From assembly GCF_000170755.1 (NCBI RefSeq), contig NZ_ABCK01000032.1, positions 1-55,288 on the forward strand: 55,288 nucleotides of DNA. Direction: 5' to 3'. Shown here piece by piece: positions 15,706 through 47,650 of the stretch; position 1 is the first letter of the stretch, and the number at the start of each line of letters is the position of its first letter. The notes beneath the pieces were generated by a model. It did not search any database. It had not been told where the DNA came from and saw only the letters and a program-made list of their open reading frames with translations. The DNA comes from Lentisphaera araneosa HTCC2155 (lineage in GTDB: Bacteria; Verrucomicrobiota; Lentisphaeria; Lentisphaerales; Lentisphaeraceae). The position numbers and the translations under genes are program-made.

Positions 15706-15972
15706 TTGAATCGACAAATAAAAGTGACTGTATCAAACGAGTATGGACTGCACGCACGCCCTGCAGCCATGATTGTGCGTGCCCTTGGAGACTTTGAAAG
15801 CGAGGTTTTACTTAAAACTGACTCAGAAGAGGCCAACTGTCGCAACATCCTTGATTTGATGTCTCTAGCGGCCGCCTGCGGCCAAGAATTAGACATCCAT
15901 GCCAACGGACCAGATTCAGAAGACGCCATTAACAAATTAAAAGATTTGTTCGAATCTAAATTTGGTGAATGA
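15706..15972 (+). CDS. ptsH: HPr-type phosphocarrier protein, Ser46 site replaced by Asn
   Basis: HPr relays phosphate from enzyme I to sugar transporters or regulators in the PTS. The phosphorylated His is H16 in G-L-H-A-R-P-A-A. The region that normally carries regulatory Ser46 reads C-R-N-I-L-D-L-M-S-L, so N47 (aligned to Ser46) cannot be phosphorylated by HPr kinase. Length is 88 residues, normal. The start is a TTG with CTGAGG upstream. Its stop overlaps the start of the AsmA-like gene (ATGA). No enzyme I or HPr kinase is present here, so whether it serves transport or nitrogen-type regulation is open. Confidence 0.85.
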   Translation: MNRQIKVTVSNEYGLHARPAAMIVRALGDFESEVLLKTDSEEANCRNILDLMSLAAACGQELDIHANGPDSEDAINKLKDLFESKFGE

Positions 15973-18900
15973 AGCCTAAACTAAAAAAGTTTCTCATTAT
16001 AACTCCCCTAAGTCTAATTATTCTTTTGGGGATTTTTTTTCTCTATTTAAGTTCCGAGAGTTTTGTACGCTCACACGTGCTCCCCGTTCTTGAAGAAAAA
16101 ACTCAGTTCACAATAGAAGTCGATTCAATCAATGTATCACTCATAAGCGGTAGCGTTGAACTCACACAGCTCAACGCACACTCTGGCCCTAATAATATCA
16201 AAGCTGAGAAACTTGAACTCAAAGTACAAACACTTGCCTGTCTTCAGGGCGACCTTCAAATTGATAAAGCCACCCTAAACGGTGCTTCTATTAATTTATC
16301 CTATGATTCCACAGGTAAACTCAAAGCCGACCCCAATAAAGCAAAAACCATCTCTTTAAAGAAAGAAGTAAAAAGAACTAAACCAAAAAAGCAGCCAGTA
16401 GAAAAAGCTAATTTATTTGATCAACTCTACGCTTTACCTAAACAACTTAGCAAAGAACTAAAACCCATCGAACTCCCCAACTTTCTTCTTCACAACTTGA
16501 GTGTAAGCGACACAAATATAAAGATTGCGAAAGATGATCGCTATGGCAAAGCTGATGAGCACCTGATTACTTTGAATTCTCTTCAAATACAAAAACTTGG
16601 CCCAAATCAAGACTTTGACATCATCTACAATGGCAGTTACGCACGCAAGAAGCCAAACCAACAGCACTTCACAGCAAAAAGCATCCACTTAAAAAGCTCT
16701 GGAACTTTCAATGAATCTGTGACTAACGCTCATGTATCAAGTTCGCTCAAAATAAGCGAATTTGAAAGCAGCCAAATGAAAGATATGAACCACTTAAGCT
16801 TAAACACATCTTTTGATATAAGCCTAATTGATAAAACCATCAAAATTGCCAAGGGTGAAGTATCTTGTACAGAAAGAGAGATCGTACACTCAAAAGCTAA
16901 AATCAACGCGCTTATCAATGAAGAACGCATAGAAGCTGAAGTAAAAGTCCCACAGCTCAACGCCTCTCTCTTAAACATTGCCTTAAACTTTGCACCAAAA
17001 TCACGTAGCTTAGAACGCTGGTTCAGTAAGACTAAAAAAGTTGGCCATAAAACAGGATTTGCAGATTCACAAATTAAAGGAGATTCAACTTTCCTTCTCA
17101 CCCACGACAAACTGATCAGCAAGGGCGAATTTCAGCTCAACAAACTACCTATGAGCATTGAGATTGATGAGAAACTAAAAAAAGATTTCATTGATGCTGA
17201 CTTTAGTTTCAAAGTTTCAACACTTAAAAACAGTCTAGATAATTTAGAGCTCAAGATTATAAGTTCAGATTCACAAGGAAACAAAGTACTCAACATTGAC
17301 TCTTCTATGGTACAGGAGACGATTAGTGCTGACATCAAGACTTCAAACCTCGACCTAAGCCTCGTGAACAACTTCTCAAAAGAAGATGAAAAACTTGCCG
17401 GTAAACTCTATTCTCGAATAAAATTTAAAAGAACACCTGAATCCACAAAAGGCTCCTTAAAAATCGACCTTAATCAACTGCAGTTCGCTCAAGTTGAAGG
17501 CAAATCACTCACAAGTTCCCTAAGCTTCGACTTCATTCAAGAAAAGCTCCAAACATCACTTGAAAATTTAACACTCTCGCTCCAAGAAAAAACCTCCGGC
17601 CAAGTACAAATTCAATCCGAACACATCTCTATAATTAGCACTCCAGACTTTGCTAAAAACACTGTAAACTCTAAGAATTTACAAGTTAGTGCAAACATCC
17701 TCGAGAGCCCCACGATCCCCAAGCAAAGCATCTCCGTAAACTTACAGGATTTAGAACTTGTTCAGACTCAAGAGAACATCCAATCCAAATCCGACTTCAC
17801 GCTCAATGGTGCTAAACTAAAAACATTCAATAACATTAGTACCTCAGGCTCATTGGAGCTCAACGCCAACTTAATCAATCAAAATCAAGTCCTTACTCTA
17901 CAGGACTTAGGTCTCAAAAACACTGGAAAGGATTTGCTCAAAATCCAATCTCTCTACCTTAACCGTCAGCAGGCGACCAGCCACAAAAAAGTCTCTCTCC
18001 ATATCCCAAAACTCAACATTCTTGATATTCAGGAAGTCACTAGACTAATGAATAACACGGAGCCCAGCTTCAAACCACAAAGCCTATCTTCCGAGATAAA
18101 ACTAGACTTAGAGCTCGAGCCCACTCAATTAAGCGCGAAAATCGAACTCCCCTCTATACACGTTATGAACGCAAGTCCGTTTAATTTAGCTGCTAACTTC
18201 ATTAAGAAAAAAGAAGCTCTTGAAGTAAAGAACTTAAGCTTAGTTCATGGCCCACATGTTTTAAACCTCAACGCTTCAATGGATAAAAACAAGTATAGAA
18301 TAGACAACTTCAACGGTCGATTCGACCTCAGCCTTGTCCATGCTATTATTAAGCAACTGAATCCAAACTTCGAAAATAATTTTTCTGGCATGGCGGACTT
18401 TAAAGAAACCAAGTTTGCCTCCCAAGGCACTAGTCCCGAAGAAATCTTCGCCCAACTCCAAAAAGGAAAAATTGATTGGAAAATCACTGATCTTAAAATC
18501 AACTTAGAACAGGAAGAAAAAACTTTTATCAGCAAAAACCTAGGCTTTAAACCCAGCGATCTACATTTCGAGGAGGGCCAAGTAAATCTAGACTTCAACA
18601 AAGACCTTGTTAAACTCAATAAATTTAAGCTAATGGGACAAAAGGGTGGCTTTGACTTCAGCGGCAAAGTCTATAAAGAAGACCAAAAACTTAAATCACA
18701 ATTTTTCACTTGGTCAGCCTTTGTAGGATCCGAGTACCTCCACCTCATCTCTCCTCAAACTATACTTGATAATATTAATGAACTTGATGATTTTCTTGAT
18801 TTCAACAAAGAAAATCAATGGTATGAATTCGATGAATCGATCGAACTCCTTAGTCAAGCTGAGGATGGGCAATTCAGTACCCTTCTAAGCCAAATTCAAT

Positions 18901-19118
18901 TTAATGCTGAGAGTAAGTTCGGCCCTTATATAAAATACTTGGATTCGGCCAAAAACTTAAGTGAAGGTAAGCTGAATAAGCAATCGGCTAATAGCATTCT
19001 CGATATCTTTAAGCAGCGTGAAGAAGAACGTCAAAAAGAACGTGAAGAAAAAGGAAAAAAGAAAAAGGAGTCCAAGACTAAACGCGCTCTTGACATCCTC
19101 GATGGACTACTTAACTAG
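15969..19118 (+). CDS. Large AsmA/TamB-like envelope protein
   Basis: The 1049-residue protein starts with a single membrane helix (about residues 8-28) and continues as a very long periplasmic part rich in short beta-strands alternating with charged residues. The region after the helix (L-P-V-L-E-E-K-T-Q-F...L-I-S-G-S-V-E-L) resembles the start of AsmA-domain proteins, which form hydrophobic-groove bridges that move phospholipid to the outer membrane. The last 40 residues are highly charged (E/K/R) and likely form a helix. It overlaps the HPr gene by 4 bases and the convergent methyltransferase by 12 bases. The family call is moderate because such repeats diverge quickly. Confidence 0.7.
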   Translation: MKPKLKKFLIITPLSLIILLGIFFLYLSSESFVRSHVLPVLEEKTQFTIEVDSINVSLISGSVELTQLNAHSGPNNIKAEKLELKVQTLACLQGDLQIDKATLNGASINLSYDSTGKLKADPNKAKTISLKKEVKRTKPKKQPVEKANLFDQLYALPKQLSKELKPIELPNFLLHNLSVSDTNIKIAKDDRYGKADEHLITLNSLQIQKLGPNQDFDIIYNGSYARKKPNQQHFTAKSIHLKSSGTFNESVTNAHVSSSLKISEFESSQMKDMNHLSLNTSFDISLIDKTIKIAKGEVSCTEREIVHSKAKINALINEERIEAEVKVPQLNASLLNIALNFAPKSRSLERWFSKTKKVGHKTGFADSQIKGDSTFLLTHDKLISKGEFQLNKLPMSIEIDEKLKKDFIDADFSFKVSTLKNSLDNLELKIISSDSQGNKVLNIDSSMVQETISADIKTSNLDLSLVNNFSKEDEKLAGKLYSRIKFKRTPESTKGSLKIDLNQLQFAQVEGKSLTSSLSFDFIQEKLQTSLENLTLSLQEKTSGQVQIQSEHISIISTPDFAKNTVNSKNLQVSANILESPTIPKQSISVNLQDLELVQTQENIQSKSDFTLNGAKLKTFNNISTSGSLELNANLINQNQVLTLQDLGLKNTGKDLLKIQSLYLNRQQATSHKKVSLHIPKLNILDIQEVTRLMNNTEPSFKPQSLSSEIKLDLELEPTQLSAKIELPSIHVMNASPFNLAANFIKKKEALEVKNLSLVHGPHVLNLNASMDKNKYRIDNFNGRFDLSLVHAIIKQLNPNFENNFSGMADFKETKFASQGTSPEEIFAQLQKGKIDWKITDLKINLEQEEKTFISKNLGFKPSDLHFEEGQVNLDFNKDLVKLNKFKLMGQKGGFDFSGKVYKEDQKLKSQFFTWSAFVGSEYLHLISPQTILDNINELDDFLDFNKENQWYEFDESIELLSQAEDGQFSTLLSQIQFNAESKFGPYIKYLDSAKNLSEGKLNKQSANSILDIFKQREEERQKEREEKGKKKKESKTKRALDILDGLLN

Positions 19119-29579: not shown

Positions 29580-30745
29580 ATGAGTTTAAGAGATTTTACA
29601 GAGAAGGCCGAAAATTATTTACTTTCCATTATTAATGGAAACAAGCTAGGCTTTGGCCCTTCTCTGATAAAATCCAATCTTTTTGTCTTATCAAAAGTCT
29701 TTCGCTCCATTGTAAAGAGCCGCCACTTTCTCTACGATAAGCGCATATTTCGCGACCGTACTTTAGGTTGCTTAGTAGTCTCCATAGGCAACCTCACAAC
29801 AGGTGGTACAGGAAAAACTCCCGTCACCGAAATCTTTGCTCGCACACTTTGTGAAAAAGGTCGTCGCGTCGCCATCTTATCCCGTGGCTACCGCAGTAAG
29901 AGCAAACCACTCAAAACAAAAATTCTTGATAAATTTCGCGGCAAAAAAACTGTCAGCCCCCCCAGAATTGTCTCTGAAGGCAAAAATGAAGTTTTGCTCG
30001 GCCCGCACATGGCTGGCGATGAACCCTACATGCTCGCCTGCAATGTTCCCGAGGCGATTGTTCTCACTGACCCTGACCGCGTAAAAGTGGTCGCTTTGCC
30101 ATTCGCAACTACCAAGCCGACCGCTCTAATGGATGATGGCTTTCAGCAATACGTCTAAACCGCGTATCACATTTTACTAATCGATAGTACGAATCCCTTC
30201 TCTAATCACTTTCTTCTCCCCCGTGGCCTCTGCGTGAACCCATAAAAAATATGCGCCGAGCACATTTTATCTTTCTAACTAAGGCCAATGGTGGCAATCA
30301 CCTTCGCCATCTAAAAAAATTCATCCGTAAACATAATACCAAAGCTGAAATTATTGAGTGTACTCACCGCCCCAAATATCTCAAGAGTTTAATCAATCAG
30401 AATCAATCTTTGTTAAGTGTACTCAAAGGCAAAAAGATTGCTGCGATCTCCGCAATTGCCGTACCCCAAAGTTTTGAAGACTTCCTTATTGGTTTTGGTG
30501 CCGAAATCGTCTATAAAGAACGCTATGCGGATCACCACATGTATTACCAAGACGAAGTTGATACCTTTGTTAAAAACTCTGAGAGTGCAGGAGCCGAATT
30601 GATTGTTACCACAGAAAAAGACGCCGTTCGCTTTCCTGAAATTAAAAATTCCTCCATTGACATCACTTACCTACGAGTGGAAATCGATATCCTCAGTGGC
30701 GAAGAAAGCTTCAATGAGTGCATCAGTCGTATTTGCTTTTCTTAA
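29580..30745 (+). pseudogene. lpxK: Tetraacyldisaccharide 4'-kinase, disrupted
   Basis: LpxK phosphorylates the lipid A disaccharide. The N-terminal part (29580-30158) has the P-loop S-I-G-N-L-T-T-G-G-T-G-K-T-P and ends at L-M-D-D-G-F-Q-Q. An in-frame TAA stops it at 30156-30158. The same frame then resumes good family sequence (I-L-L-I-D-S-T-N-P-F-S-N...L-L-P-R-G) until about 30225, where one base appears to be lost, and the rest (R-E-P-I-K-N, F-L-T-K, T-T-E-K-D-A-V-R-F-P) continues in another frame to 30745. A one-base and a two-base loss near 30150-30165 plus a one-base loss near 30230 would explain the pattern. Either the gene is recently broken or the sequence has errors here; lpxK is normally essential in LPS-bearing cells. 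Confidence 0.85.
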
Positions 30746-33126: not shown

Positions 33127-34485
33127 ATGAAGTTATATCTATCACTCTGCTTCTTATTCATAGCACAACTATCAGCCAAACAAGCAGATATCAGAGTTTT
33201 ACACGAACTCCAAGGAACCGTCAGTTCCATTGCAGAAAAAAGCAGTAAAGGCTTCCTTTACATGGAAATCTCACACGTCAATAAAGGCAAAACTCAAGCG
33301 ATACCGATAACAGGCTTGTTAATGGATAAAAAAGGTCATATCGCCACTTTATATCTCGACCAAAAGCGCTTTGTCAGCTGCAGTGTTTGGATTGATGAGC
33401 AAGAATACAAAGCCTCCTACCTTTACTCCGATAAACTCAAAGGCTTCACTATCTTAAAACTCGATGCCGAAGCACCCATTGATAAACTGATCCCCGCTAG
33501 CTTTGGTGATCCCACTTTACTAAAAAATGGCGAATTCATCATCTCTGTAACACCGACAAACCCTGACTTTGGTCAAATCCCTTTCGTTAATTTATGTTCT
33601 GTTGCTGGAACACTTGAAAGTAATCGTGACCTCATTTACGTCAATGGCATTAGTAAACATCGTGCCGCTGGTACAGCTCCTGTTGGCATGCCTTTTTTGA
33701 ACCTCAAAGGAAAAGTTATCGGGCTTTATGTGGGCAATGGCGTCATTATGTCGGATAGCTTTGAAAAAGGTTGTCGCAAGCTTTTAGACAAAATAGAAAA
33801 AGGGGAAGACCTTAATGACCCCTCTGATGTCCCCTGGGATGGCTTTTCCTATAAAGTGATCAATCAAGATTTCTCTGAAGCCATGGGCGTCAGCCAAGAA
33901 AGTATTTTGGTCACTCGTGTTATCGATGATTCACCTGCATCAAAAGCCGGCTTAAAAGCAGGAGATATCATCACCGCTATCGACAACAAACCATTCACAC
34001 GTAAGGGGCGCCCTGTTCTTTCCCAAGCTCGAAAATTACTCGATGCCGAAATTGGTCGAGAATGCCCCATCACTTTTGAACGCGATGGCAAGAAATTAAC
34101 TGGCGTGATAAGCTTCATCAAAAAACCAAAATCAGATAGTATTTCAGTTGATGAACTCGGGCTTACTATCAATAACATCACGCCTATTGATTTCTACTCT
34201 TACCGCCTCCACAAAAAATCGGGTGTCTTGGTCTCCTCAATCGAAAAAGGTAGTCCAGCTGCCACGTCAACCTATTTTGGTCGACCACTTATTTCACCAG
34301 GAGATATCATCATGGAAATTGATCATCAAGAAATTAATAATATTCAAGATCTCAGAAAAATCATCAACGAGATCCGCCTCGCAAAGAAAAATGAAGTGCT
34401 TATAAAATTACTTGATGGTAGCGTTTCCAAATTTGTTTCACTCAATACGGCAATTGGCCAAAAAACAAAAAAGGCTGACAAATGA
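33127..34485 (+). CDS. HtrA-like pseudoprotease with two PDZ domains
   Basis: The 452-residue secreted protein (signal peptide 1-17) has the trypsin-like layout of HtrA, but the active site is gone. The usual T-N-x-H-V reads A-T-L-Y-L, the D-x-A-L-L-K-I strand reads G-F-T-I-L-K-L, and G-N-S-G-G-P-L reads P-V-G-M-P-F-L. Two PDZ domains follow (S-P-A-S-K-A-G-L-K-A-G-D and S-P-A-A-T-S...I-S-P-G-D-I). Its stop overlaps the start of the active HtrA (ATGA at 34482-34485), so it is translated with it. It may act as a scaffold or a regulator of that protease. Confidence 0.85.
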   Translation: MKLYLSLCFLFIAQLSAKQADIRVLHELQGTVSSIAEKSSKGFLYMEISHVNKGKTQAIPITGLLMDKKGHIATLYLDQKRFVSCSVWIDEQEYKASYLYSDKLKGFTILKLDAEAPIDKLIPASFGDPTLLKNGEFIISVTPTNPDFGQIPFVNLCSVAGTLESNRDLIYVNGISKHRAAGTAPVGMPFLNLKGKVIGLYVGNGVIMSDSFEKGCRKLLDKIEKGEDLNDPSDVPWDGFSYKVINQDFSEAMGVSQESILVTRVIDDSPASKAGLKAGDIITAIDNKPFTRKGRPVLSQARKLLDAEIGRECPITFERDGKKLTGVISFIKKPKSDSISVDELGLTINNITPIDFYSYRLHKKSGVLVSSIEKGSPAATSTYFGRPLISPGDIIMEIDHQEINNIQDLRKIINEIRLAKKNEVLIKLLDGSVSKFVSLNTAIGQKTKKADK

Positions 34486-36248
34486 AAAAATTACTCCTCT
34501 GCCTCTTATCCCTCACTCCAAGTCTTTTCGCCTTAAGCCAGGGCGAAGCCCTCTTCGACAAAGTTGATGCCTGTGTCGTCTCGATTCAGCATGAAAATGC
34601 GGGTGGAAGTGGCTTCATTATTTCCGAGGATGGTTACATCCTCACCAATGGTCATGTTATCTCTTTGATGGATCGCGAAAATCCAAAAGACGTAGCCAAA
34701 CGCATTACTGTGGTTCTTCACGATGAATCCAAATACCAAGCACAAGTCATCGGTTTTTCTTTAGATCCCGACATAGCACTCATTAAAATCAAGCCAAAGA
34801 CTAAGTTGAGCACTGCCATTCTCGCAGACTCAAACTCAGCTCGTACAGGCCAGGAATGTTACGCCTTTGGTGCTCCCTTAGGGTTAAAAAGAACATTAAC
34901 TAAAGGGATTATTTCTAATACTGCTCAAACAAGCATCGGCACTTTCACCAAAGTTATCCAAACTGACGCAGCTATCAATCCAGGTAATAGCGGTGGGCCA
35001 CTCTTTAATATCAATGGCGAAGTGATTGGCGTTAACACCTATGCAAAAAGTGGCTCAGGCCTTGGTTTCTCTATCCCCATTAACTTTGCTAAAACACTCG
35101 TTGAGCACTTCAAAGAGTATGGTTATTTTAGACGCGCAGAGACACCACTCATTTTCACAAAAGCCATGACCGAGGAACTAGCTCGTGTGCTCAATTCTCC
35201 CCGTGGCCTTTTTATTGACTTTGTAGCTCCCAACTCACCTGCCGAAAAAGCTGGCTTCAAGGCAGCGGATATTATTGTTGGTATGAATGGAGAAAAAGTT
35301 GATGGCTCTAGTGAAGAAGCTTTCTTTGATTTTAACTGGGAATTTGTCACTCAAAAAGTTGACTCTGATAGCAGCTTAACTATTCAGCGTCGTCAAGCTG
35401 ATGGATCTTATAAAGAAATCATCATCAGCTGTAAGTTAGTCGAAGATGATCCCATGCCTGCAAGCGGCTATCAAATCGGTGAACTCTTAGAAATCAATTA
35501 CCCTGAAGTTGGCATGGCCGTTCAGCGTGTGACGCAATATGTCCAGTATATCTATAATTTTCCACACATGAATGGTGTTCGTATTGCTGGCTTAACTAAA
35601 AATAAAACAGCTGCCAAAGCAGGGCTCTACCGCAATGACTTTATCACGGAACTCAATGGCCAAAAAGTTCGCGATGATCAACACTTCAAAACCCTCATGG
35701 ATAAAATCCTCATTGCCCAAACAAAGTTCTTGATCTTTAAGGTCAAACGCGGCAACGATGAGCTTAAGATCCCTTTACGCGTTCACTACCCCCTTAAAGA
35801 TCGTAAAATCCTTCTCGTTCATAACAAAGATGAGTACCACGAAGAACTCATTCGGCGTATTCAACTTTCGGGCGCTGAAATCACTTCTATCTCCATGATC
35901 GATAAGCAAGCTACCGAGACTGAATGGGATGGCATTATCATCTCTTCTCAACAAACCGATCAAATCCCTGGAATCACGGTTCTCTTAGCCAAAGCAGCTG
36001 AGAATAAAACTCTTCTGGGCCTCGTTGGCAATGCGCCTGTTCAGCTCATTCATGCCCCCGAGTTTTATAAATCAAAAAAATTCACTATGGACAAAGAGAA
36101 ATCGGCGATTGCACTCAAAGCCGACCTTTTTTACACGGGTAAAGATAATGAAATTGACGGCAAACTAATTAGTACCAATGCCTTCGATAATCAATCGATT
36201 CGACAGTTCATCGCCACCTTCCGTGCCATGGCTTCTCAGGCAAAATAA
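34482..36248 (+). CDS. HtrA/DegP-type serine protease with PDZ domains
   Basis: Periplasmic quality-control protease. The signal peptide covers about residues 1-19. The triad is intact: H58 in T-N-G-H-V, D97 in D-P-D-I-A-L, S170 in G-N-S-G-G-P-L. Two PDZ domains follow (N-S-P-A-E-K-A-G-F and A-A-K-A-G-L-Y). About 150 further residues at the C-terminus are unusual: they contain K-D-R-K-I-L-L-V-H-N and a Rossmann-like strand pattern that I do not recognise. At 588 residues it is about 100 longer than DegP. Coupled to the inactive paralog upstream. Confidence 0.93.
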   Translation: MKKLLLCLLSLTPSLFALSQGEALFDKVDACVVSIQHENAGGSGFIISEDGYILTNGHVISLMDRENPKDVAKRITVVLHDESKYQAQVIGFSLDPDIALIKIKPKTKLSTAILADSNSARTGQECYAFGAPLGLKRTLTKGIISNTAQTSIGTFTKVIQTDAAINPGNSGGPLFNINGEVIGVNTYAKSGSGLGFSIPINFAKTLVEHFKEYGYFRRAETPLIFTKAMTEELARVLNSPRGLFIDFVAPNSPAEKAGFKAADIIVGMNGEKVDGSSEEAFFDFNWEFVTQKVDSDSSLTIQRRQADGSYKEIIISCKLVEDDPMPASGYQIGELLEINYPEVGMAVQRVTQYVQYIYNFPHMNGVRIAGLTKNKTAAKAGLYRNDFITELNGQKVRDDQHFKTLMDKILIAQTKFLIFKVKRGNDELKIPLRVHYPLKDRKILLVHNKDEYHEELIRRIQLSGAEITSISMIDKQATETEWDGIIISSQQTDQIPGITVLLAKAAENKTLLGLVGNAPVQLIHAPEFYKSKKFTMDKEKSAIALKADLFYTGKDNEIDGKLISTNAFDNQSIRQFIATFRAMASQAK

Positions 36249-38176: not shown

Positions 38177-41100
38177 TTACAAACGTTTATACCACTTATC
38201 GACCAGCTCTTCTAGTTGGGGCTCAAGGTGGCTACTATTTTCTGAAAAATAGCTTTCTTCAATAAGCTTAATATCACTCTCTAAATCAGCTTCAGTGGCT
38301 AGTGCATGATCGGATTGTTTGATTTGATTGAGAAAAGCAATAACTGAAACAGCACTAAGTTTTTGAGGCTTCTCAAATTCAATTTTTTCTTCGACGAGCT
38401 CTTGTTTAGCTACAGCTTTTGTGAGCTTGATTAGTACAGCTATAACTATAAGCGATAAGAGTGTCGCCACTATGTAAAACACGGGAGATTGAGCCGCCTT
38501 AGCCTTTAAATATTCTTCCTTGTCTGCCGCTACAATGTCAGCATCTTGATACTTCTTGTAGGAGACTTCTATGTCATCCAGTTTTATTTCAGGGAAAACA
38601 AATTTACTCAGCTCTCCCTGCCATTCAACGGAAGCATCAAACGCCAATTCAGATGAAACCGTCACGCGTCCATCATTTTGCTCATACTTAGTCACCAAAG
38701 GCTCTACATTTTCGGCACTTAATTTCAATTTATAATCCTTAGGTATGATTAAGAGCTCTTTTATGTTTGGCAACAGACCTTCCCCAGACATCTGCAGCTC
38801 TATAGAAACTTTACCTTCATGAGCACCACGACTATCGAGAATGAGCTCTAAGTTCGCATTTTTATAGGGTCTCACTTGATAATCTGTCGATTTGCTTGAA
38901 AGGCGAAGGGTGTTTGACCGCACCGGAAGTACAACCTGCCCTTGCCCATCATTAAAATCCATCTCAATAATAATTTCGGGAAGTTTATCCACTGCAGGAT
39001 CTTTAGATCTCAAAGTTAAGTAGGCTAAAGGTGTTTCCTGCCAATGTTTACGTGCTAAGCCCATGGCCTTAGGTCGATCCAAAACCCAGGTAATACTACC
39101 TAACTCAAATTTATCCTTGAGAGCTTTATTAATCTGATCCGTTAATTTCTTACGATAGTTTGTTACCCCTCGACCACTGATATTTACCGCACCCAAGGCA
39201 TACTTATCGAAACCTCCCGATTCACGTCCCAACTCTTTACTATGATGCAGGCTCACAAACACACCAAACTCATTCACATGACCTACCGAACTTGAGCCAT
39301 CTAACTTTAAATTGAGCTTCACTTCAGTCAATAAATCTTCATAGAACTGTAGCTGCTTGGTAATTCCATCAAGAGAAGGATGGTCTCCCATAATAAATTT
39401 CGCGGCTGACATAAAAGGCAGCTTAACGTGAGGCTGTAATTGCGGCCACATGCCCGTTAACCACTCACCAAACATATTGATATGACGCTCACGCCATTGT
39501 TCATCCATTGAGAATAACTGCGCACGCAATTCTTTGAGTTGCATATCGGATACAGAAGAACTCATCTCTAAACCTTGTAGATTACTTGCTCCAAGAATGA
39601 TGCTAAACCATTGAGTGTAGGGTTGAATTGTGTATTCTGATTTCCTTGCTTCTAACAAAGATTCATACAAACGCGCACAGTCCCTAAAACGCGAGAAAGC
39701 ATCTTTCCGAAGTTCACTATATTCAGCGGCACTACAGAGTTTATTCTTATTTTTATACTCTGCAAAATCGTAGAGCACTGCTGCTAAACTGACTGTTAAT
39801 GCGATATTGTCACCTTTTGTTTTCAATCGCCCTGAGAGCAGATTAATAACAGCTTGGTAAGCACTCACAGCCTCTTTTTGTGCCTCTTGCTCACTGCGGT
39901 TCGTTTGATACTGCAACTGAATTTGTCGACGCGTTTTATCATCTACCCAATCTCGTTGTACGAGAGCCACTAATTGACGGCATAAGACGAGCAAAGTCTT
40001 ATCATCGAGTTGATCTAAATCACCAAAGACTAATCTAACATCATCTTCACTAATGATTTCGGCTTGGCTAAAACAAGCAACAAAAGCTTTGACTTGAGCT
40101 GCTGGGTCAACTTTTATGCCTGCCTCATACACTTTGCTAAACATTGCCTGACAATCTTCAAGATTCTTCTTTTGACGCAAACGCGTTAAAGGAATCCCCT
40201 TGGGTTCACTTCGAAATATCTGCCCTCGTGATTGCACTGTTCGTGCCATGTTATTTCGATTGGGATTCACTGTTCGCGCCCAATCATCAAAAACTTCGTT
40301 ACAGATACGCCCAATTGTTTGGGGGTAGTGATCCTTGAAGCTTAACAAACGATCAAAAGCAGGTTCGGAATAGATGCCTTGCTTTAATTGGGCGATCGCT
40401 TCCTGAAAAGAAAAAAGTTGCTGTTCTGCATAACTTAAGCCACTTAGAGTTTGACTTGAGGGAACATTTTTTACTAGGGTATTAAAGTTAACGTACTTAG
40501 GAGCTCGTTTTGCCTTACTACGGCTATTGCTTTGAACGCTCATCTCCTTTTTCTTCTCTACTAAGCTATGGGCATATTCCCACTGCCAGTGGCGTACAGC
40601 TGTGCGTGAAAGTCCCGCATTAACATTTACTGTGGACAGACGGTTAATCACTCTCATGCTGCTAGCAAGGTCAATCGCTCTTTGAGTGTAGTTTTTTGAT
40701 TTATGTATCGCTATTAGTTTTTCATCGAAGCGTTTTTTTAGGGCTTCCAGTAAATCTTCATTGGCAAAAATGGATCTAAACCATTTGTCCATAAAAGCAT
40801 CATCGGCTGAAGCGCAATAATCCGCGATATTTTTAACAAGTTCTATTTTATCATCTAAAGGCAGATCTTTTTCTTGAAGTGCGAAGCATAAGTCTAGGTA
40901 ACTTTTACTATTGATTGATTTGAGTAAAGCTAACCACGGCTTGGCTTTTTCTAAACTCGCCAGTTTTTTCAATTCATCCATTTGTGGCATCAGTTCCATG
41001 GCTTTTTCGCGTTGACCAAAACTCGAATAAAAACTCATGTAAAGAAAAGTCTTTCTCAAGTCTTTTTCTTTCGCTCGCTCTTCAATTTCTCGATATAAAG

Positions 41101-41848
41101 AATCCTCTGGTGAACCGGCACTCGCACTCTTCTTTACCAAAGCAATTAATTTAGACAATTTCTGCGCCTCGCCATAGAACATCAGTTCCACAAAACCTTT
41201 AAGATCTAAAGCCGTGAAGAGAACGGGATCTTTTTCTAAGAGTCCCACAAGTTTATTATAAGTATCTTCGTAGACTATTTTTCTCGTGAAGCCATCACCT
41301 TTGGCGAACTCACGCAGTTTCTTATTCATATCATCAATCACTTCACTCTGGCGATTGACCAAAGTGATTTCTGTCACGCCACCTTGCACAGGCAACAAGG
41401 CTCTAACTTTATCAATGAATTGATTGGCTGTAATATTCCGCTCAGCTCCTAAGCGACCTAAAATTGTTTTTCCATCAGGTTTAATCACAACGTAACTGGG
41501 GTAGCCCTTAATTTCAAAGCTCGTCTTGAGAACGGCATTTTGTTCGACAAATTTTGCGGGAACCAATTTTTTGTTTTGTGGGAAATCAATATAAGCCAAG
41601 CTCAGCTCTTTTTTTGCGAACTCCGCCCATTGAGGATCTGCAAATACGGCTTTATCCATCAGCTTACACCAACCACACCAATCACTACCGGTAAAATTGA
41701 TAAATAAAACCTTTTTATTATCCTGAGCATACTTTTTCGCAGCCTGATAATCCATCGTCCACTGGCCAGCTTTATGGCCCTCAGTCAAAACCTCCGCAAC
41801 GCAAAGATTCCAACAGCAAAATATGATTCCTAAAAATAACCTATACAT
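38177..41848 (-). CDS. Giant thioredoxin-fused membrane protein of the Bat operon
   Basis: The 1223-residue protein has a signal peptide (about 1-19), then a thioredoxin-like domain with the active site S-D-W-C58-G-W-C61-K and the cis-Pro segment G-Y-P-S-Y. The next 600 or so residues are helical and repeat-like. A beta-rich part follows (about 850-1120), which resembles the aerotolerance protein BatD in its strand pattern and its place before the helix. One membrane helix lies near 1137-1155, and the last 65 residues are cytoplasmic and acidic. The start has AAGGAG at -9. It is the last gene of the moxR-Bat unit. The fusion is seen directly; the BatD comparison is inference. Confidence 0.8.
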   Translation of the reverse strand: MYRLFLGIIFCCWNLCVAEVLTEGHKAGQWTMDYQAAKKYAQDNKKVLFINFTGSDWCGWCKLMDKAVFADPQWAEFAKKELSLAYIDFPQNKKLVPAKFVEQNAVLKTSFEIKGYPSYVVIKPDGKTILGRLGAERNITANQFIDKVRALLPVQGGVTEITLVNRQSEVIDDMNKKLREFAKGDGFTRKIVYEDTYNKLVGLLEKDPVLFTALDLKGFVELMFYGEAQKLSKLIALVKKSASAGSPEDSLYREIEERAKEKDLRKTFLYMSFYSSFGQREKAMELMPQMDELKKLASLEKAKPWLALLKSINSKSYLDLCFALQEKDLPLDDKIELVKNIADYCASADDAFMDKWFRSIFANEDLLEALKKRFDEKLIAIHKSKNYTQRAIDLASSMRVINRLSTVNVNAGLSRTAVRHWQWEYAHSLVEKKKEMSVQSNSRSKAKRAPKYVNFNTLVKNVPSSQTLSGLSYAEQQLFSFQEAIAQLKQGIYSEPAFDRLLSFKDHYPQTIGRICNEVFDDWARTVNPNRNNMARTVQSRGQIFRSEPKGIPLTRLRQKKNLEDCQAMFSKVYEAGIKVDPAAQVKAFVACFSQAEIISEDDVRLVFGDLDQLDDKTLLVLCRQLVALVQRDWVDDKTRRQIQLQYQTNRSEQEAQKEAVSAYQAVINLLSGRLKTKGDNIALTVSLAAVLYDFAEYKNKNKLCSAAEYSELRKDAFSRFRDCARLYESLLEARKSEYTIQPYTQWFSIILGASNLQGLEMSSSVSDMQLKELRAQLFSMDEQWRERHINMFGEWLTGMWPQLQPHVKLPFMSAAKFIMGDHPSLDGITKQLQFYEDLLTEVKLNLKLDGSSSVGHVNEFGVFVSLHHSKELGRESGGFDKYALGAVNISGRGVTNYRKKLTDQINKALKDKFELGSITWVLDRPKAMGLARKHWQETPLAYLTLRSKDPAVDKLPEIIIEMDFNDGQGQVVLPVRSNTLRLSSKSTDYQVRPYKNANLELILDSRGAHEGKVSIELQMSGEGLLPNIKELLIIPKDYKLKLSAENVEPLVTKYEQNDGRVTVSSELAFDASVEWQGELSKFVFPEIKLDDIEVSYKKYQDADIVAADKEEYLKAKAAQSPVFYIVATLLSLIVIAVLIKLTKAVAKQELVEEKIEFEKPQKLSAVSVIAFLNQIKQSDHALATEADLESDIKLIEESYFSENSSHLEPQLEELVDKWYKRL

Positions 41849-41864
41849 ATTGACTCCTTAATAA

Positions 41865-42608
41865 TTATGACCCTGTCCCTTCTGGTCTTTCACCTAGTCC
41901 CGAACCGCGAGCATCTTCTTGACCTTCGCCATCGCCTAAACCTTCACCTGAGCCCTCGCCTTCCTGTCCCGCCTGTTGACCCATGGCACCGCGCCCTGCA
42001 CCAACTCCCTGGGAACCTCTACCTGAATCATCTTCTGGCAAAGCGTTCAAACGCAAATTCTTTCGATCAATTTTTCCCAAGGCAATACTTGCTTGTAAAT
42101 TATACACCCTATCCTTGTTCAAAGCATTGTCTTCTGCCAAAAAACGTAAGTGCTGTCTCGCACTTTCCACTTCTTTTTTCCAATATTGTTTTGCCACGCC
42201 CTCGAGCCTCATATGCCAAGCCGTATAATATAAGCTATGTCCCAAAGTCGCTCTGACTTTATCTTGATCACTTTGACTCAATTCGATGTCTTTATCATAA
42301 ATCATTTCCATTAGCGACTCAACTTCTTCAGTCGCCTTCACAATTTGTTTATTGTTGAGGTACACTTTGGATTTGGCGAGACGAAGAGCCGCTTCCGCTC
42401 GATCTAAAGGATTCTTCTCTAATAAAGCCAGTGCCTCATCATAGATAACTAAACTCTCCTGCCATTGCCCTTCAGTATTCAAAAGATCCCCCTGAGCCTT
42501 TAGTTCGGCAACGCGGTCATGCAAGATATACTCTTGCCCTTTTCCAAAATGAAAATAGGCCCAAAAGACTGGAAGGATAAACCAAAAAAACAAAAGGTAC
42601 TTCTTCAT
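41865..42608 (-). CDS. Bat-operon TPR protein with Gly-rich tail (BatC/BatE-like)
   Basis: The 247-residue protein has an N-terminal hydrophobic anchor, a few TPR-like helix pairs (A-E-L-K-A-Q-G-D and A-A-L-R-L-A-K-S-K) and a C-terminal tail of about 55 residues made of Gly, Glu, Gln and Ser. Such tails are common in BatC-type TPR proteins. It overlaps the preceding VWA gene by 4 bases and ends 16 bases before the giant protein. Confidence 0.75.
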   Translation of the reverse strand: MKKYLLFFWFILPVFWAYFHFGKGQEYILHDRVAELKAQGDLLNTEGQWQESLVIYDEALALLEKNPLDRAEAALRLAKSKVYLNNKQIVKATEEVESLMEMIYDKDIELSQSDQDKVRATLGHSLYYTAWHMRLEGVAKQYWKKEVESARQHLRFLAEDNALNKDRVYNLQASIALGKIDRKNLRLNALPEDDSGRGSQGVGAGRGAMGQQAGQEGEGSGEGLGDGEGQEDARGSGLGERPEGTGS

Positions 42609-43603
42609 TTCACCGGGCTCCCAAAATCATGTAAGTCTCTAATTTTTGAACGCTGTTGTTTCTGATCAAGTGCAAAATTCAAGAGTAGATAAGGCAGCAA
42701 GGCCAAGAGTAAGCTAGAAAGGAAACACGTGAGCAAAGCCCATTCACGAAGAGTAAAACTTTTGGCTTCTTCTTCAGTATCACCTGCTAAGTCGCCTAAA
42801 ACTTGCGTAGACAAATGCTTTTGATTCACATCCTGATACTGCCCACGCAGCCGTTTGGCTAGACGTTTCAAACTCAAAGTATCTTGTCTCGATTGGTGGC
42901 CGTCAATAAACATCCCCTCTGAGCTCCCCACACCTGCCACCAAAAATTCTTTGATTGCACTGGGAGCTTCGGGCATGCCTATTTCTGATGTGGAATCACC
43001 GTCAGAAATCAATAGGCAAGTACAGGAATCAGGACGCCATTTCTTCGCGACCTCAAAAGCTTTCTGAATTCCCTTTAACAAATCCGTTTTCCCTGGAGTA
43101 AAAGCTTGATCCATTGGCAGATCAAGAATATTTGCGATCACCGCTTCGTCAGTGGAGTCAATAATCACTGGCAAGGCATCGGTAAAAGTTGCAACAATAC
43201 TGTATTTCACATGGGGATCTTTAATGCGCTCCATCATCGACTCGAGAACTTCACGAGCGCGTAATTTACGTTGCATATCACCCGAAAAACCCGCATCGTC
43301 CAGATACATACTTGGAGAAACGTCCAAGATAATTAAGACATGCTCAACTTTATCAGGAGGAATTTTTTCTCCTTCTAAATCATCACCTAAATTGACTTGC
43401 TTATAATTCATTAAAACTAAGAGCCCCCAGGCTAAACTTGCCATAGCTAATGATCGAATTAAAGGAACAAACATTGTCCACCTTCGCGCTCGACCTTCTG
43501 GCCCAAAACTTAAAGAAGCCAATTTCCCAATTCGTTTACTGTGAATCCACTCAGCTAAAAAACACAAAATAAAGACGCCCACTGCAATCATCAAAGCTAC
43601 CAT
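42605..43603 (-). CDS. Membrane VWA-domain protein, BatB-like
   Basis: The 332-residue protein has two or three N-terminal hydrophobic segments, a von Willebrand A domain with the metal site D-V-S-P-S-M and a later S-D-G-D-S-T, and a C-terminal membrane helix. Paired VWA proteins follow moxR and DUF58 in Bat operons and are thought to help envelope stress resistance. It overlaps the upstream VWA gene by 7 bases and the downstream TPR gene by 4. Confidence 0.88.
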   Translation of the reverse strand: MVALMIAVGVFILCFLAEWIHSKRIGKLASLSFGPEGRARRWTMFVPLIRSLAMASLAWGLLVLMNYKQVNLGDDLEGEKIPPDKVEHVLIILDVSPSMYLDDAGFSGDMQRKLRAREVLESMMERIKDPHVKYSIVATFTDALPVIIDSTDEAVIANILDLPMDQAFTPGKTDLLKGIQKAFEVAKKWRPDSCTCLLISDGDSTSEIGMPEAPSAIKEFLVAGVGSSEGMFIDGHQSRQDTLSLKRLAKRLRGQYQDVNQKHLSTQVLGDLAGDTEEEAKSFTLREWALLTCFLSSLLLALLPYLLLNFALDQKQQRSKIRDLHDFGSPVK

Positions 43604-44520
43604 GGGTTATACCTCAAACCATAAAGGCTCAGCAAATAAAGAGTCAAAAAACTTAGGCCGCCGATAGAGAAAGGCTTGTAATAATCTTCTTCTTTGGCTT
43701 CTTTTTTGATGAACTTTGCTTTCTCCATTTTATCGATAAAACGAAAGGTTTCATCTAAAGCTTTTGGGTTATTAACGCCAAAGACTTGGCCACCCGTTAT
43801 CGCCGCCAGGGCATTCATCTCTGGGCTGCCATTACCAGAACCAATATAAATGCAGTAGGCAACAATCTTGTTATTTCTAAGTTCCTGAGCCATATCCACT
43901 GTATCATTTGGGCTTCCACTCACGCCATCTGAAACGAGAATGATCATGCGATCGCCATCTTCTTGTTGTAAGAGTTGCTGTTGACTGCCTCTTAAGGCCT
44001 TAGCAATATTGGTTCCTCCAAACCACTTGCTCATTCGATCTGGTGCAAGGAATGGCGTCGCTAATGCAATCGCAGAAGTATCTTTAGTGACGGGAACCCA
44101 ATTGATGTATTCCGTACCAAACACCGTTAAGCCAAAGGCATCGCCTTCTCTGTATTCCGTAAATTCTTTCACGGCTTGCATAGCCACTTCATAGCGATTC
44201 TTTCCGCCAAAGTCCGCTCTCATGGACCCCGATGAATCTAAACAAATCTGAATATTGGAAATAATTTTTTCGTCTTCCGGCTTACCTTTAATTTTAGGCC
44301 CCGCTAAAATGAAAATTACAATAATTAAAAGTAGGCTTGGTAACATCCCCGCTAAATTGCATAAGACTCTGACAAATCTCTGATTCGAGGCCTCTCCGCC
44401 ATCCATCGGCAAGGTAATAGGCTGCCCTTTGCTGAGCCAAACCTGAAATATCAGCAGCAATGGGATCACTCCTAAGAGGAACCATTCACTTGAAGAAAAA
44501 GTCATCAAATCCAAGTTCAT
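43597..44520 (-). CDS. Membrane VWA-domain protein, BatA-like
   Basis: The 307-residue protein has N-terminal membrane helices, then a VWA domain with an intact metal site (L-D-S-S-G-S-M and V-S-D-G-V-S-G) and a last membrane helix near L-S-F-L-T-L-Y-L-L-S. It is the first of two VWA genes and overlaps the BatD-like gene by 4 bases (ATGA). Confidence 0.88.
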   Translation of the reverse strand: MNLDLMTFSSSEWFLLGVIPLLLIFQVWLSKGQPITLPMDGGEASNQRFVRVLCNLAGMLPSLLLIIVIFILAGPKIKGKPEDEKIISNIQICLDSSGSMRADFGGKNRYEVAMQAVKEFTEYREGDAFGLTVFGTEYINWVPVTKDTSAIALATPFLAPDRMSKWFGGTNIAKALRGSQQQLLQQEDGDRMIILVSDGVSGSPNDTVDMAQELRNNKIVAYCIYIGSGNGSPEMNALAAITGGQVFGVNNPKALDETFRFIDKMEKAKFIKKEAKEEDYYKPFSIGGLSFLTLYLLSLYGLRYNPW

Positions 44521-45272
44521 CTTCTTTCCTCAGTAAAGCGACGAATCTGATTCAACAAACTCTGCAGATTGAGTTTCTCTTTGGCATGCAGAGCTTTTTC
44601 TAAACTGCTTATGAGCTTCCCACTTTCATCATCTTCTTTTAGTCTTTCAAAAACCTCGGCTCCCGAGAGATCTTTAATTTGTAGATGTTCACGACAAAAC
44701 TGAATGCAACTGAGCTCAAGTTCTTGCCATAAATCCTTACTCGACTTCCCTTGGTTAAGCTGCTCTAGTCTCTCTAAGAGAAAGTCGGCTAAAGTCACCT
44801 CAGCTTGAACTTTAACTAGGACAATTTCTTTCTTTTTCCTCACAAAAATGATCAGTATTAAGCCTAAAAACCACACCGCAATTAAGACTCGAGTCAAAGA
44901 TTGATACCACGGTTTTAATTCAATTTGATTTTGATCATAAGCAATAAGTTCCCCATTAAAATCTTTGGGTAAACTTGAAGTAAACTCCAACCACAAGGGA
45001 GCTACTTTCTTAAGGTCTGAATTTTGCGGAGACCGCAAAAAATCCATGATATTAAAGCGACCCACTTCATTGGCTATAATCTCAAAATTGTAAATATAAG
45101 CCTCATTCACTTTTGCAATATTGATCAAGCGGAGTTCTAACCCCGCTTCCTCTGTTCCTAGCTCAATTTCCCAATCATCACTCGGCAAACTTATTTTTTG
45201 CTGATGGGCAACTCCCAACTCAAGTGAATACGCCGAAAAAGTAAAAAGCAGAAGGAGCAAGAAAGGTTTCAT
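44517..45272 (-). CDS. Single-pass Bat-operon protein (BatD/DUF4381-like)
   Basis: The 251-residue protein has a signal peptide (about 1-16), a beta-rich domain of about 100 residues outside the membrane, one membrane helix near 127-143 followed by R-K-K-K, and a cytoplasmic helical tail. This order matches short BatD or DUF4381 proteins found between DUF58 and VWA genes. No catalytic motif is visible. Both neighbours overlap by 4 bases. It carries palindrome copy 7. Confidence 0.65.
   Translation of the reverse strand: MKPFLLLLLFTFSAYSLELGVAHQQKISLPSDDWEIELGTEEAGLELRLINIAKVNEAYIYNFEIIANEVGRFNIMDFLRSPQNSDLKKVAPLWLEFTSSLPKDFNGELIAYDQNQIELKPWYQSLTRVLIAVWFLGLILIIFVRKKKEIVLVKVQAEVTLADFLLERLEQLNQGKSSKDLWQELELSCIQFCREHLQIKDLSGAEVFERLKEDDESGKLISSLEKALHAKEKLNLQSLLNQIRRFTEERR
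45024..45038. repeat. TTGCG-N5-CGCAA palindrome, copy 7
   Basis: Exact copy with spacer GAGAC; the match extends to TTTTGCGG-AGA-CCGCAAAA, the longest in the window. Minus-strand codons read Leu-Arg-Ser-Pro-Gln. Confidence 0.95.
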
Positions 45273-46135
45273 AAACGACTCTTGCCTAAGAGATCTCTAT
45301 GCTTTAAGAAATGACGCAACTTCGACATAACTGGTAAATCTGTTCTCAATAATAAATGATCTAAACCTGCTCGCTTTAATTTTTCGGTATAATTTTCTCC
45401 CGCTAAGCCCAGTTTCTTACCGTGACTGACAAAGGCTTTAGGAGACTCCGCTTCGTGTGCACGAAAAATCCCACCACCAAGCGACCCATCCTCTGCGGGG
45501 TCTCGCATGAGTAAAACTAAGCAATCGTGTTCTTGATGCGCGAGCTTCAATGCCGAAATCGCTTCGGGATCATGTAAATCTGAAATGATAACTAACAGAC
45601 TTTTACTTTTTAAAGAAGGTAATAAATGGCGTAAGGTCAGAGACAGCGAGGTACTCTCTTCAAGATTATAATGACGCAAACTATACGCCCATTGCATAAG
45701 CACATTTTTTGACAAACTCGGCTGAAAGTGCAAATCCCTTTCCCTACTACCACAGCCCATTAAACCTACGGGGCTCATACGATCTTGCGCAACAAGTGCC
45801 AGGCCAGTCGCAATTTGTACTGCTAAAGCATATTTGCTCAACTTAAGTGAGCTCACACACATCGAAGCTGAAGTATCAAGCAAAATATACATCGGCATTT
45901 GTTTGGGAGCTTCGTACTCTTTGACAAATACTTTTCCCGTTCTCGCTGTTACGCGCCAATCAATTGACTTCACCGAATCGCCCGGTATGTATTGACGCGA
46001 CTGTACAAAGTCGATCCCACCTCCTAAAAACGGCGATGAATCAGCGCCATAAGCCAAGCTATCCGCGAGACGTTTGACCGCTAGAGAAAACTGTTTCTCA
46101 TCGAGATGGTCATTAACTGGGGGAGTAGAGGCCAA
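45269..46135 (-). CDS. DUF58 protein of the MoxR/Bat operon
   Basis: The 288-residue protein has the DUF58 signature R-Q-Y-I-P-G-D-S-V-K-S-I-D-W-R-V-T-A-R-T-G, followed by a VWA-like stretch with L-D-T-S-A-S-M. The start is a TTG, with GGGGTGA about 7 bases upstream inside the end of moxR. DUF58 proteins accompany MoxR ATPases almost everywhere and are probably their targets or cofactors. It overlaps the next gene by 4 bases. Confidence 0.9.
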   Translation of the reverse strand: MASTPPVNDHLDEKQFSLAVKRLADSLAYGADSSPFLGGGIDFVQSRQYIPGDSVKSIDWRVTARTGKVFVKEYEAPKQMPMYILLDTSASMCVSSLKLSKYALAVQIATGLALVAQDRMSPVGLMGCGSRERDLHFQPSLSKNVLMQWAYSLRHYNLEESTSLSLTLRHLLPSLKSKSLLVIISDLHDPEAISALKLAHQEHDCLVLLMRDPAEDGSLGGGIFRAHEAESPKAFVSHGKKLGLAGENYTEKLKRAGLDHLLLRTDLPVMSKLRHFLKHRDLLGKSRL

Positions 46136-46138
46136 AAA

Positions 46139-47134
46139 TCACCCCAATTGATTGAGACTCTGATTTAAAACCTCACGTCCACTATGCCCTTCCGCCAAGG
46201 CTTCATAAGTTAAACGAATTCTGTGTAAAACCACATCCTCTGCCAAAGCAAATAAATCTTCGGGAACGACATAATCGCGTTCATGAATAAAAGCTCTCGC
46301 ACGGGCGGCTTGAACTAAGGCAAGGCCGGCACGTGGACTCGCCCCCATTTCGATGAGTGGGTTTTCACGAGTTTTTCTCACCAGCTGTAAACAATGTTGA
46401 GTAAAAACTTCACTCACATGTACAGTCTGAATCATTTCCATGACTTTAACCAAGTGCTCAATACCACCAATTGCTTTATCTTCGATCAAATCAAAGGCAC
46501 TTTGTGGAACGGCTCCACCTTTTTCACTTTTGTTTAAACCTAAGCCGAGTTGCTGAGTCAAAATACTGAATTCTTCCTCTTCTTTGGGGTAGCCTAGACG
46601 GTGCATCATCATAAAGCGGTCGAGCTGCGCTTCTGGCAACTCAAATGTCCCACTCTGCTCAACGGGATTTTGTGTGGCAATCACCAAAAAGGGTGAAGGT
46701 AACTGAAAACTTTCTTTACCAATGGTCACCTTGCGTTCCTGCATACATTCGAGCAAAGCACCCTGCACTTTTGGTGCCGCTCGGTTAATTTCATCGGCTA
46801 AAAGTAAATTAGTGAAAACGGGACCTTTATTCACATAAAAGCCGCCCTTTTGTTGGTCGAGCATTTCACTTCCCAGAATATCGGATGGCAACATATCGAT
46901 GGTAAACTGAACGCGACTAAACTCTAAATCAACAGCTTTTGCCACGGTGTTGACTAAGAGTGTTTTTGCTAAGCCCGGTAAACCCTCGAGCAATAAGTGT
47001 CCCCCAGTAAACAGAGCAATTAATACCCTTTCAACTACTTCATCCTGACCTATCACTACTTTGCCAACTTGGCTTCTTATTTTTTGTATAAATTCTATCG
47101 CTTCGGACTTATCACTCAAAACACTCTCCGTCAT
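46139..47134 (-). CDS. MoxR-family AAA+ ATPase
   Basis: Chaperone-like ATPase that matures or activates partner complexes, often through VWA proteins. Walker A reads G-L-P-G-L-A-K-T (the usual MoxR form), Walker B is L-L-L-A-D-E-I-N-R-A, and A-T-Q-N-P-V-E and E-A-Q-L-D-R-F follow. I prefer the ATG at 47134; TTG at 47206 and ATG at 47176 are in frame but have no ribosome site and would add a Cys-rich leader. From 47134 the protein has 331 residues, typical for MoxR. First gene of the seven-gene operon. Confidence 0.92.
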   Translation of the reverse strand: MTESVLSDKSEAIEFIQKIRSQVGKVVIGQDEVVERVLIALFTGGHLLLEGLPGLAKTLLVNTVAKAVDLEFSRVQFTIDMLPSDILGSEMLDQQKGGFYVNKGPVFTNLLLADEINRAAPKVQGALLECMQERKVTIGKESFQLPSPFLVIATQNPVEQSGTFELPEAQLDRFMMMHRLGYPKEEEEFSILTQQLGLGLNKSEKGGAVPQSAFDLIEDKAIGGIEHLVKVMEMIQTVHVSEVFTQHCLQLVRKTRENPLIEMGASPRAGLALVQAARARAFIHERDYVVPEDLFALAEDVVLHRIRLTYEALAEGHSGREVLNQSLNQLG

Positions 47135-47144
47135 TAAAATTGAT

Positions 47145-47160
47145 CCACAGTCATCTGTGG
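47145..47160. promoter_or_regulatory. Perfect 6-bp inverted repeat just upstream of moxR
   Basis: CCACAG and CTGTGG flank TCAT, 11 bases upstream of the preferred moxR start. It may be an operator or a leader hairpin. Confidence 0.35.
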
Positions 47161-47206
47161 TTGAAACCTTATGCATTAATAGGCACTTTCGGCATCTCTT
47201 TTTCAA

Positions 47207-47621: not shown

Positions 47622-47650
47622 GCCACTCGATTCTTTTGAGTGGCTTTTTT
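47622..47650 (+). terminator. Strong terminator with no recognised gene in front
   Basis: GCCACTC (47622-47628) pairs with GAGTGGC (47638-47644), followed by six T. It is oriented for plus-strand transcripts only, while all genes from 36686 to 47134 are on the minus strand. Confidence 0.85.

Follow-up and report, generated by a model that had tools for sequence, protein, structure and literature searches.

In their canonical form, operons of the Bat type comprise moxR, DUF58, BatA, BatB/TPR and BatD genes. MoxR AAA+ proteins are described as typically engaging client complexes together with VWA partners (PMC9976466, PMC13036017). That Bat proteins provide periplasmic reducing power, or a reduced periplasm, is an old proposal (PMC3557215, PMC5700661), and a supply of reducing power was suggested for them from work in Bacteroides (PMC3557215). 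Deletion of batABD in Leptospira biflexa produced no oxidative-stress phenotype (PMC3557215), and deletion of batA in Riemerella lowered oxidative resistance (PMC11834572). A further point of comparison is DsbH of Chlamydia, a reducing dithiol oxidoreductase suggested to be the keeper of the reduced chlamydial periplasm (PMC5193440). Searches of the open-licence literature found no publication in which MoxR, DUF58 and a thioredoxin were treated together.

Here, we analysed a stretch of 55,288 nucleotides from Lentisphaera araneosa HTCC2155 (contig NZ_ABCK01000032.1, positions 1 to 55,288; hereafter the window). It carries seven genes on the minus strand, separated by successive gaps of +3, -4, -4, -7, -4 and +16 bp. 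The first encodes a MoxR AAA+ ATPase (46139..47206; AAA_3, E 1.3e-61, with AAA_lid_2) and is followed by a DUF58 protein (45269..46135; PF01882, E 1.5e-27). The third product (44517..45272) is a signal-bearing TM protein with a cytoplasmic helical tail, recognised by syntenic homologues that are 22-26% identical; it was called BatD-like in the original prediction, which was not borne out, as it matches no Pfam model, nor any NCBIfam one. Two VWA membrane proteins come next, with MIDAS-type motifs read directly from the sequence. VWA1 (43597..44520; VWA over cut-off; motif DSSGS...T...D) is BatA-like, with a sub-threshold match to NCBIfam BatA_Lepto (E 3.5e-23), and the BatA N-terminal signature PF07584 is absent from its Pfam matches; VWA2 (42605..43603; VWA_2 over cut-off) has a complete motif (DVSPS...T...D). 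The sixth gene (41865..42608) encodes a TPR-like protein of 247 aa with an N-terminal hydrophobic segment and a Gly-rich C-terminus, assigned from a weak TPR_19 match under the cut-off (E 0.0028) and from a syntenic homologue in Akkermansiaceae. The end of this protein (window 41865-42050) is a tail rich in Gly and Glu (GRGSQGVGAGRGA...GEGSGEGLGDGEGQ), which Lentisphaera marina has conserved. The last gene (38177..41848) encodes a membrane protein of 1223 aa, hereafter designated as the giant. The reading of this locus as a known anti-phage defence system was rejected, as none of the seven products matched a PADLOC model.

Several features of the surrounding DNA were recorded alongside. A strong terminator-like stem-loop with a T-run lies on the plus strand (window 47622-47644), between the divergent moxR operon and a GDSL gene (47712), and no RNA elements were found within the window. 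An lpxK-like gene (window 29580-30745) is split over two frames, both matched by a single 390-aa homologue in a third Lentisphaera species (85% and 79%), and a frameshift in the genome or in the assembly is the likely cause. An adjacent pair of HtrA-type genes (window 33127-36248) encodes one protein with trypsin and PDZ domains and another with PDZ only and no Pfam protease match, perhaps an inactive partner. A 1049-aa ORF (window 15969-19118) has no Pfam match at E 0.001. In L. marina, the operon is followed, 272 bp downstream and on the same strand, by a gene that by eye is KatG-like (catalase-peroxidase; L009:12954-15281); this gene is flanked by the giant and a sulfatase gene, a place where it is absent in the window.

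The window operon resembles a Bat operon in gene content and order. It contains contiguous moxR, DUF58, two VWA genes and a TPR gene (the last by a weak match), and, as in canonical Bat operons, MoxR, DUF58, VWA and TPR proteins succeed each other and a secreted TM protein, here the giant, occupies the BatD position. From about residue 838 on, the giant is modelled as Ig-like beta domains, one TM helix and a cytoplasmic helical tail, an arrangement that, with the signal peptide at the N-terminus, may or may not correspond to the BatD-type layout. The difference lies in the signatures, as neither BatD nor BatA is recognised by Pfam in the window operon. PF13584 (BatD) had no match at E 1 in the giant or in nine of its homologues, and hhalign comparison of the giant with BatD proteins of the same bacterial family gave probabilities of 0.4% and 0.1%, with shallow profiles on both sides; a BatD structure for comparison was not found in the PDB by sequence. 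The same genome encodes two other operons (C34 and C9) with MoxR, DUF58, VWA and a genuine PF13584 BatD, the C9 operon also bearing the PF07584 BatA signature. The identification of the giant as BatD was thus rejected at the level of Pfam signatures, and the expectation of a standard Bat operon with the giant as its BatD was not supported, since Pfam and profile comparison recovered no BatD here and the real ones reside in the two other operons. Because these two hold genuine BatD proteins and the giant lacks the signature, the window operon is a third, divergent MoxR/VWA operon of this genome, with the giant in the BatD position. The giant may nonetheless work like BatD.

The giant is read from an ATG start without internal stops and begins with a signal peptide (hydrophobic residues 4-22). 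The thioredoxin domain follows (residues 29-152; 41393..41764; Thioredoxin_7, Thioredoxin_2, PDB 2ju5), then a predicted alpha-solenoid (about residues 181-837; 39338..41308; AlphaFold, Foldseek/VIA), predicted Ig-like beta domains (about residues 838-1115; 38504..39337; AlphaFold, VIA, alignment), and a TM helix (about 1122-1140) with an acidic cytoplasmic tail to residue 1223 (38180..38485; hydropathy and model helices), the tail having 17 D/E against 9 K/R. In the whole-chain AlphaFold model, built with 29 homologues (mean pLDDT 73), the chain is helical between about 170 and 840 and forms strands between about 843 and 1115, after which come the TM helix and a short tail of helix. Residues 838-1223 were modelled better on their own (pLDDT 83). 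Confidence was low for the thioredoxin domain (pLDDT mostly below 50), since few of the aligned sequences contain it. Fold searches with the whole and C-terminal models returned generic matches and none that was specific: helical-repeat proteins for the middle (Foldseek/VIA) and, for the beta part, pilin, fibronectin and Ig folds in VIA, where Z reached 7.0 over 109 residues at 3.7 A. On the strength of these matches, the two regions are read as an alpha-solenoid plus Ig-like domains. The latter are among the best conserved regions of the giant in alignments across Akkermansiaceae. The same intact fusion occurs in L. marina (77% identity), which has the nearest homologue of the giant in a named species, and in a third congener (68%). 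An assembly chimera or error was ruled out by the agreement of the three genomes, and so was a chance ORF, synonymous sites being near saturation at a protein identity of 68-77%. The ORF, Pfam and AlphaFold evidence upholds the original description of the last of the seven packed genes as a thioredoxin-like CGWC domain joined to a helical and beta-rich chain, a TM helix and an acidic tail.

The thioredoxin domain carries a C58-G-W-C61 active site and a cis-Pro motif, G-Y-P, at 115-117, both invariant across nine aligned family members. It matches Pfam Thioredoxin_7 (residues 29-124, 37.1 bits) and Thioredoxin_2 (residues 41-133, 31.3 bits), each with a cut-off of 27, and its best PDB match is 2ju5 (E 2.3e-16; profile E 2.2e-24), which we take to be DsbH of Chlamydia pneumoniae. 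NCBIfam DsbH (NF043050) matches residues 29-152 with E 5e-26 and 91.7 bits; because this is below the curated equivalog cut-off of 190, the domain is designated DsbH-like rather than DsbH. It shares with chlamydial DsbH a secreted thioredoxin fold and the W-C-x-W-C motif; in contrast to DsbH, a free-standing protein of about 166 aa, it forms the tip of a membrane protein of 1223 aa. Free-standing thioredoxins with the same CGWCKLMD signature occur in Lentisphaerota, Kiritimatiellota and Verrucomicrobiota, with at most 55% identity to residues 20-155 or so of the giant, and differ from it in being mostly 150-330 aa long, often with a helical extension. A phylogenetic tree places these domains from the three fusions, with modest support, among sequences from Lentisphaerota and Kiritimatiellota. 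Between the three Lentisphaera species the domain is 70-80% identical, equal to the rest of the giant, and the linker that follows (153-180) is 45-64% identical, below the domain; constraint is weakest in the linker, the TM helix and the tail (48-69% for the tail).

The distribution of the giant was examined with profiles built from the chain beyond its thioredoxin domain, in 149 genomes of the class, 388 of the window's own GTDB phylum and 117 of a single family (f28), which we infer to be Akkermansiaceae. Matches were found in 3 of the 149 class genomes, all Lentisphaera, with none in the remaining genera of the family to which the window belongs, and in 10 of the 388 phylum genomes, namely the three Lentisphaera and seven of the Akkermansiaceae; a VWA2 profile matched exactly the same 10. 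Within the Akkermansiaceae set about a quarter of the genomes (30/117) encode a giant, including Akkermansiaceae bacterium UBA4145 and ANT-64. This patchy spread suggests horizontal transfer or multiple losses. All seven Akkermansiaceae genomes that were fully read have an identical order of moxR, DUF58, small TM protein, VWA1, VWA2, TPR and giant. Their giants are of similar length (about 1230-1320 aa) and 25-28% identical to those of Lentisphaera over the C-terminal 725 residues or so, from which they differ by a Pro-rich and helical N-terminus with neither CxxC nor thioredoxin match. Proteins of about 1230 aa with an alpha-solenoid, Ig-like domains and a TM helix apparently constitute an undescribed family, partner of a distinct type of MoxR/VWA operon.

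Fusion of the thioredoxin domain to the giant was found in all three Lentisphaera genomes, that of the window being 6.0 Mb in size. A CxxC or thioredoxin match was detected in none of 29 Akkermansiaceae giant loci, many of which have their first residues (up to about 125) outside the compared stretch, and the domain was also absent from the seven Akkermansiaceae giants read at full length. Free-standing members of the thioredoxin family are encoded elsewhere in 7 of 7 checked genomes with thioredoxin-free giants. Outside Lentisphaera, 71 re-examined relatives of the domain are separate proteins, none of them adjoined by the seven-gene operon, the sole case of some proximity being a moxR/DUF58 pair about 6.5 kb from a free-standing thioredoxin (locus L078). 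A general linkage of DsbH-like thioredoxins to Bat genes was ruled out by these loci. The original prediction would have been refuted by a thioredoxin lying apart from Bat genes in every relative: this holds outside Lentisphaera (71 loci) and fails inside the genus (3/3 fused), and the link is therefore a trait at the level of the genus, not a common component of Bat operons. What does stand is the covalent fusion, conserved across the genus, of a thioredoxin domain with a complete active site to the protein that ends a MoxR/DUF58/VWA/TPR operon. As giants elsewhere lack the thioredoxin and thioredoxins elsewhere are separate, two parts that are otherwise separate are one protein in Lentisphaera. 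Judged from sequence comparison, the fusion is confined to Lentisphaera among the relatives examined; the domain was probably joined to the giant in the Lentisphaera lineage, its loss in the Akkermansiaceae lineage being less likely.

As to function, the sequences make a role of the domain in thiol sensing or repair plausible, given the DsbH-like family, the intact CGWC/cis-Pro site and the occurrence of DsbD in the genome. This DsbD, in which DsbD_TM and a C-terminal thioredoxin domain share one frame of 725 aa, is alone in the genome in matching PF02683. We propose that the seven genes specify a MoxR/VWA machine of the inner membrane, in which MoxR and DUF58 would be cytosolic, whereas VWA1, VWA2 and the TPR protein would be anchored in the membrane. 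The giant would be its large periplasmic arm, made up of the solenoid and the Ig-like domains and fixed by a single TM helix, with the cytoplasmic tail presumably facing MoxR. In Lentisphaera, the arm would be tipped by a DsbH-type thioredoxin domain, probably reductive by homology, which would most likely draw its electrons from the single DsbD and reduce disulfides or oxidised cysteines of proteins held by the machine. A possible in-cis substrate is offered by the giant itself. Beyond the thioredoxin domain, the periplasmic part of Lentisphaera giants contains 7-8 cysteines, 7 of them invariant and located in the solenoid (Cys 321, 345, 516, 566, 592, 705 and 724; n=3 related species), as compared with a mean of 2.8 such cysteines in 26 thioredoxin-free giants, and with 0-6 poorly conserved ones in Akkermansiaceae giants. 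This contrast may reflect lineage, because the three species are related and cysteine makes up about 0.85% of their giants, close to the average of 0.97% for the window; the seven conserved cysteines fit an in-cis target, confounded by a single lineage. The reading as a whole, in which the giant serves a MoxR/VWA machine as its periplasmic arm and a DsbD-recharged DsbH-like domain keeps client or in-cis cysteines reduced, is one that we are about equally ready to believe and to doubt. The lack of an oxidative-stress phenotype in the Leptospira batABD deletion speaks against it, as does the departure of the window operon from the canonical Bat type. Its more specific form, a MoxR/VWA chaperone machine with a built-in periplasmic disulfide reductase, in which clients are presented on the solenoid arm to a DsbD-powered thioredoxin, is put forward only tentatively.

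Other roles of the domain were weighed against the same observations. Its position at the extreme N-terminal end of a long chain that crosses the membrane once and has a cytoplasmic tail would suit a redox sensor, in which oxidation of C58-C61 reshapes the giant, signals through the tail to MoxR and gates the machine without any client enzymology, and a periplasmic oxidative-stress signalling complex formed by Bat proteins was left open previously (PMC3557215). However, the domain has kept the full catalytic motif along with the general conservation of its family, the studied member of that family is an enzyme, and the tail that would transmit the signal is among the least conserved parts of the giant (48-69%), all of which make a pure sensor unlikely. 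The C58-C61 pair might instead form or isomerise disulfides in the giant or in clients. The title of PDB entry 2ju5, thioredoxin disulfide isomerase, and the seven conserved solenoid cysteines point in this direction, but DsbH was described as a reducing oxidoreductase (PMC5193440), and an essential disulfide is not evident, because Akkermansiaceae giants hold 0-6 poorly conserved cysteines; we regard such an activity as very improbable.

A different question is whether the domain has anything to do with the machine at all. It could be a general periplasmic reductase of the DsbH type, tethered near DsbD for convenience of location and independent of MoxR and the VWA proteins. Free-standing relatives are indeed widespread, and the window genome and L. 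marina each have a single other, more distant thioredoxin paralogue (about 35% identical in the window genome) and no equally close second copy, as if the fused copy were a relocated gene. This argument is weakened by the third congener (G006), which retains a closer free-standing member (119.8 bits) in addition to the fused one, and by the maintenance of the fusion to the same operon in 3/3 species under uniform constraint, which leaves mere tethering rather improbable. The preferred reading remains that of a periplasmic arm with a DsbD-recharged, DsbH-like reductive domain.

The function of Bat-type operons is contested, and here a probably reductive thioredoxin sits inside the operon's own protein. 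A distinct type of MoxR/VWA operon, with the giant as a partner, is common to Lentisphaera and Akkermansiaceae, and the thioredoxin-free homologues of the latter represent a natural control for the reducing-power idea. The genus includes a named and sequenced strain, L. marina IMCC 11369, and two cysteines turn the old and contested idea of Bat reducing power into a directly testable form. If true, the built-in reductase would be a direct molecular form of the reducing-power proposal made long ago for Bat operons.
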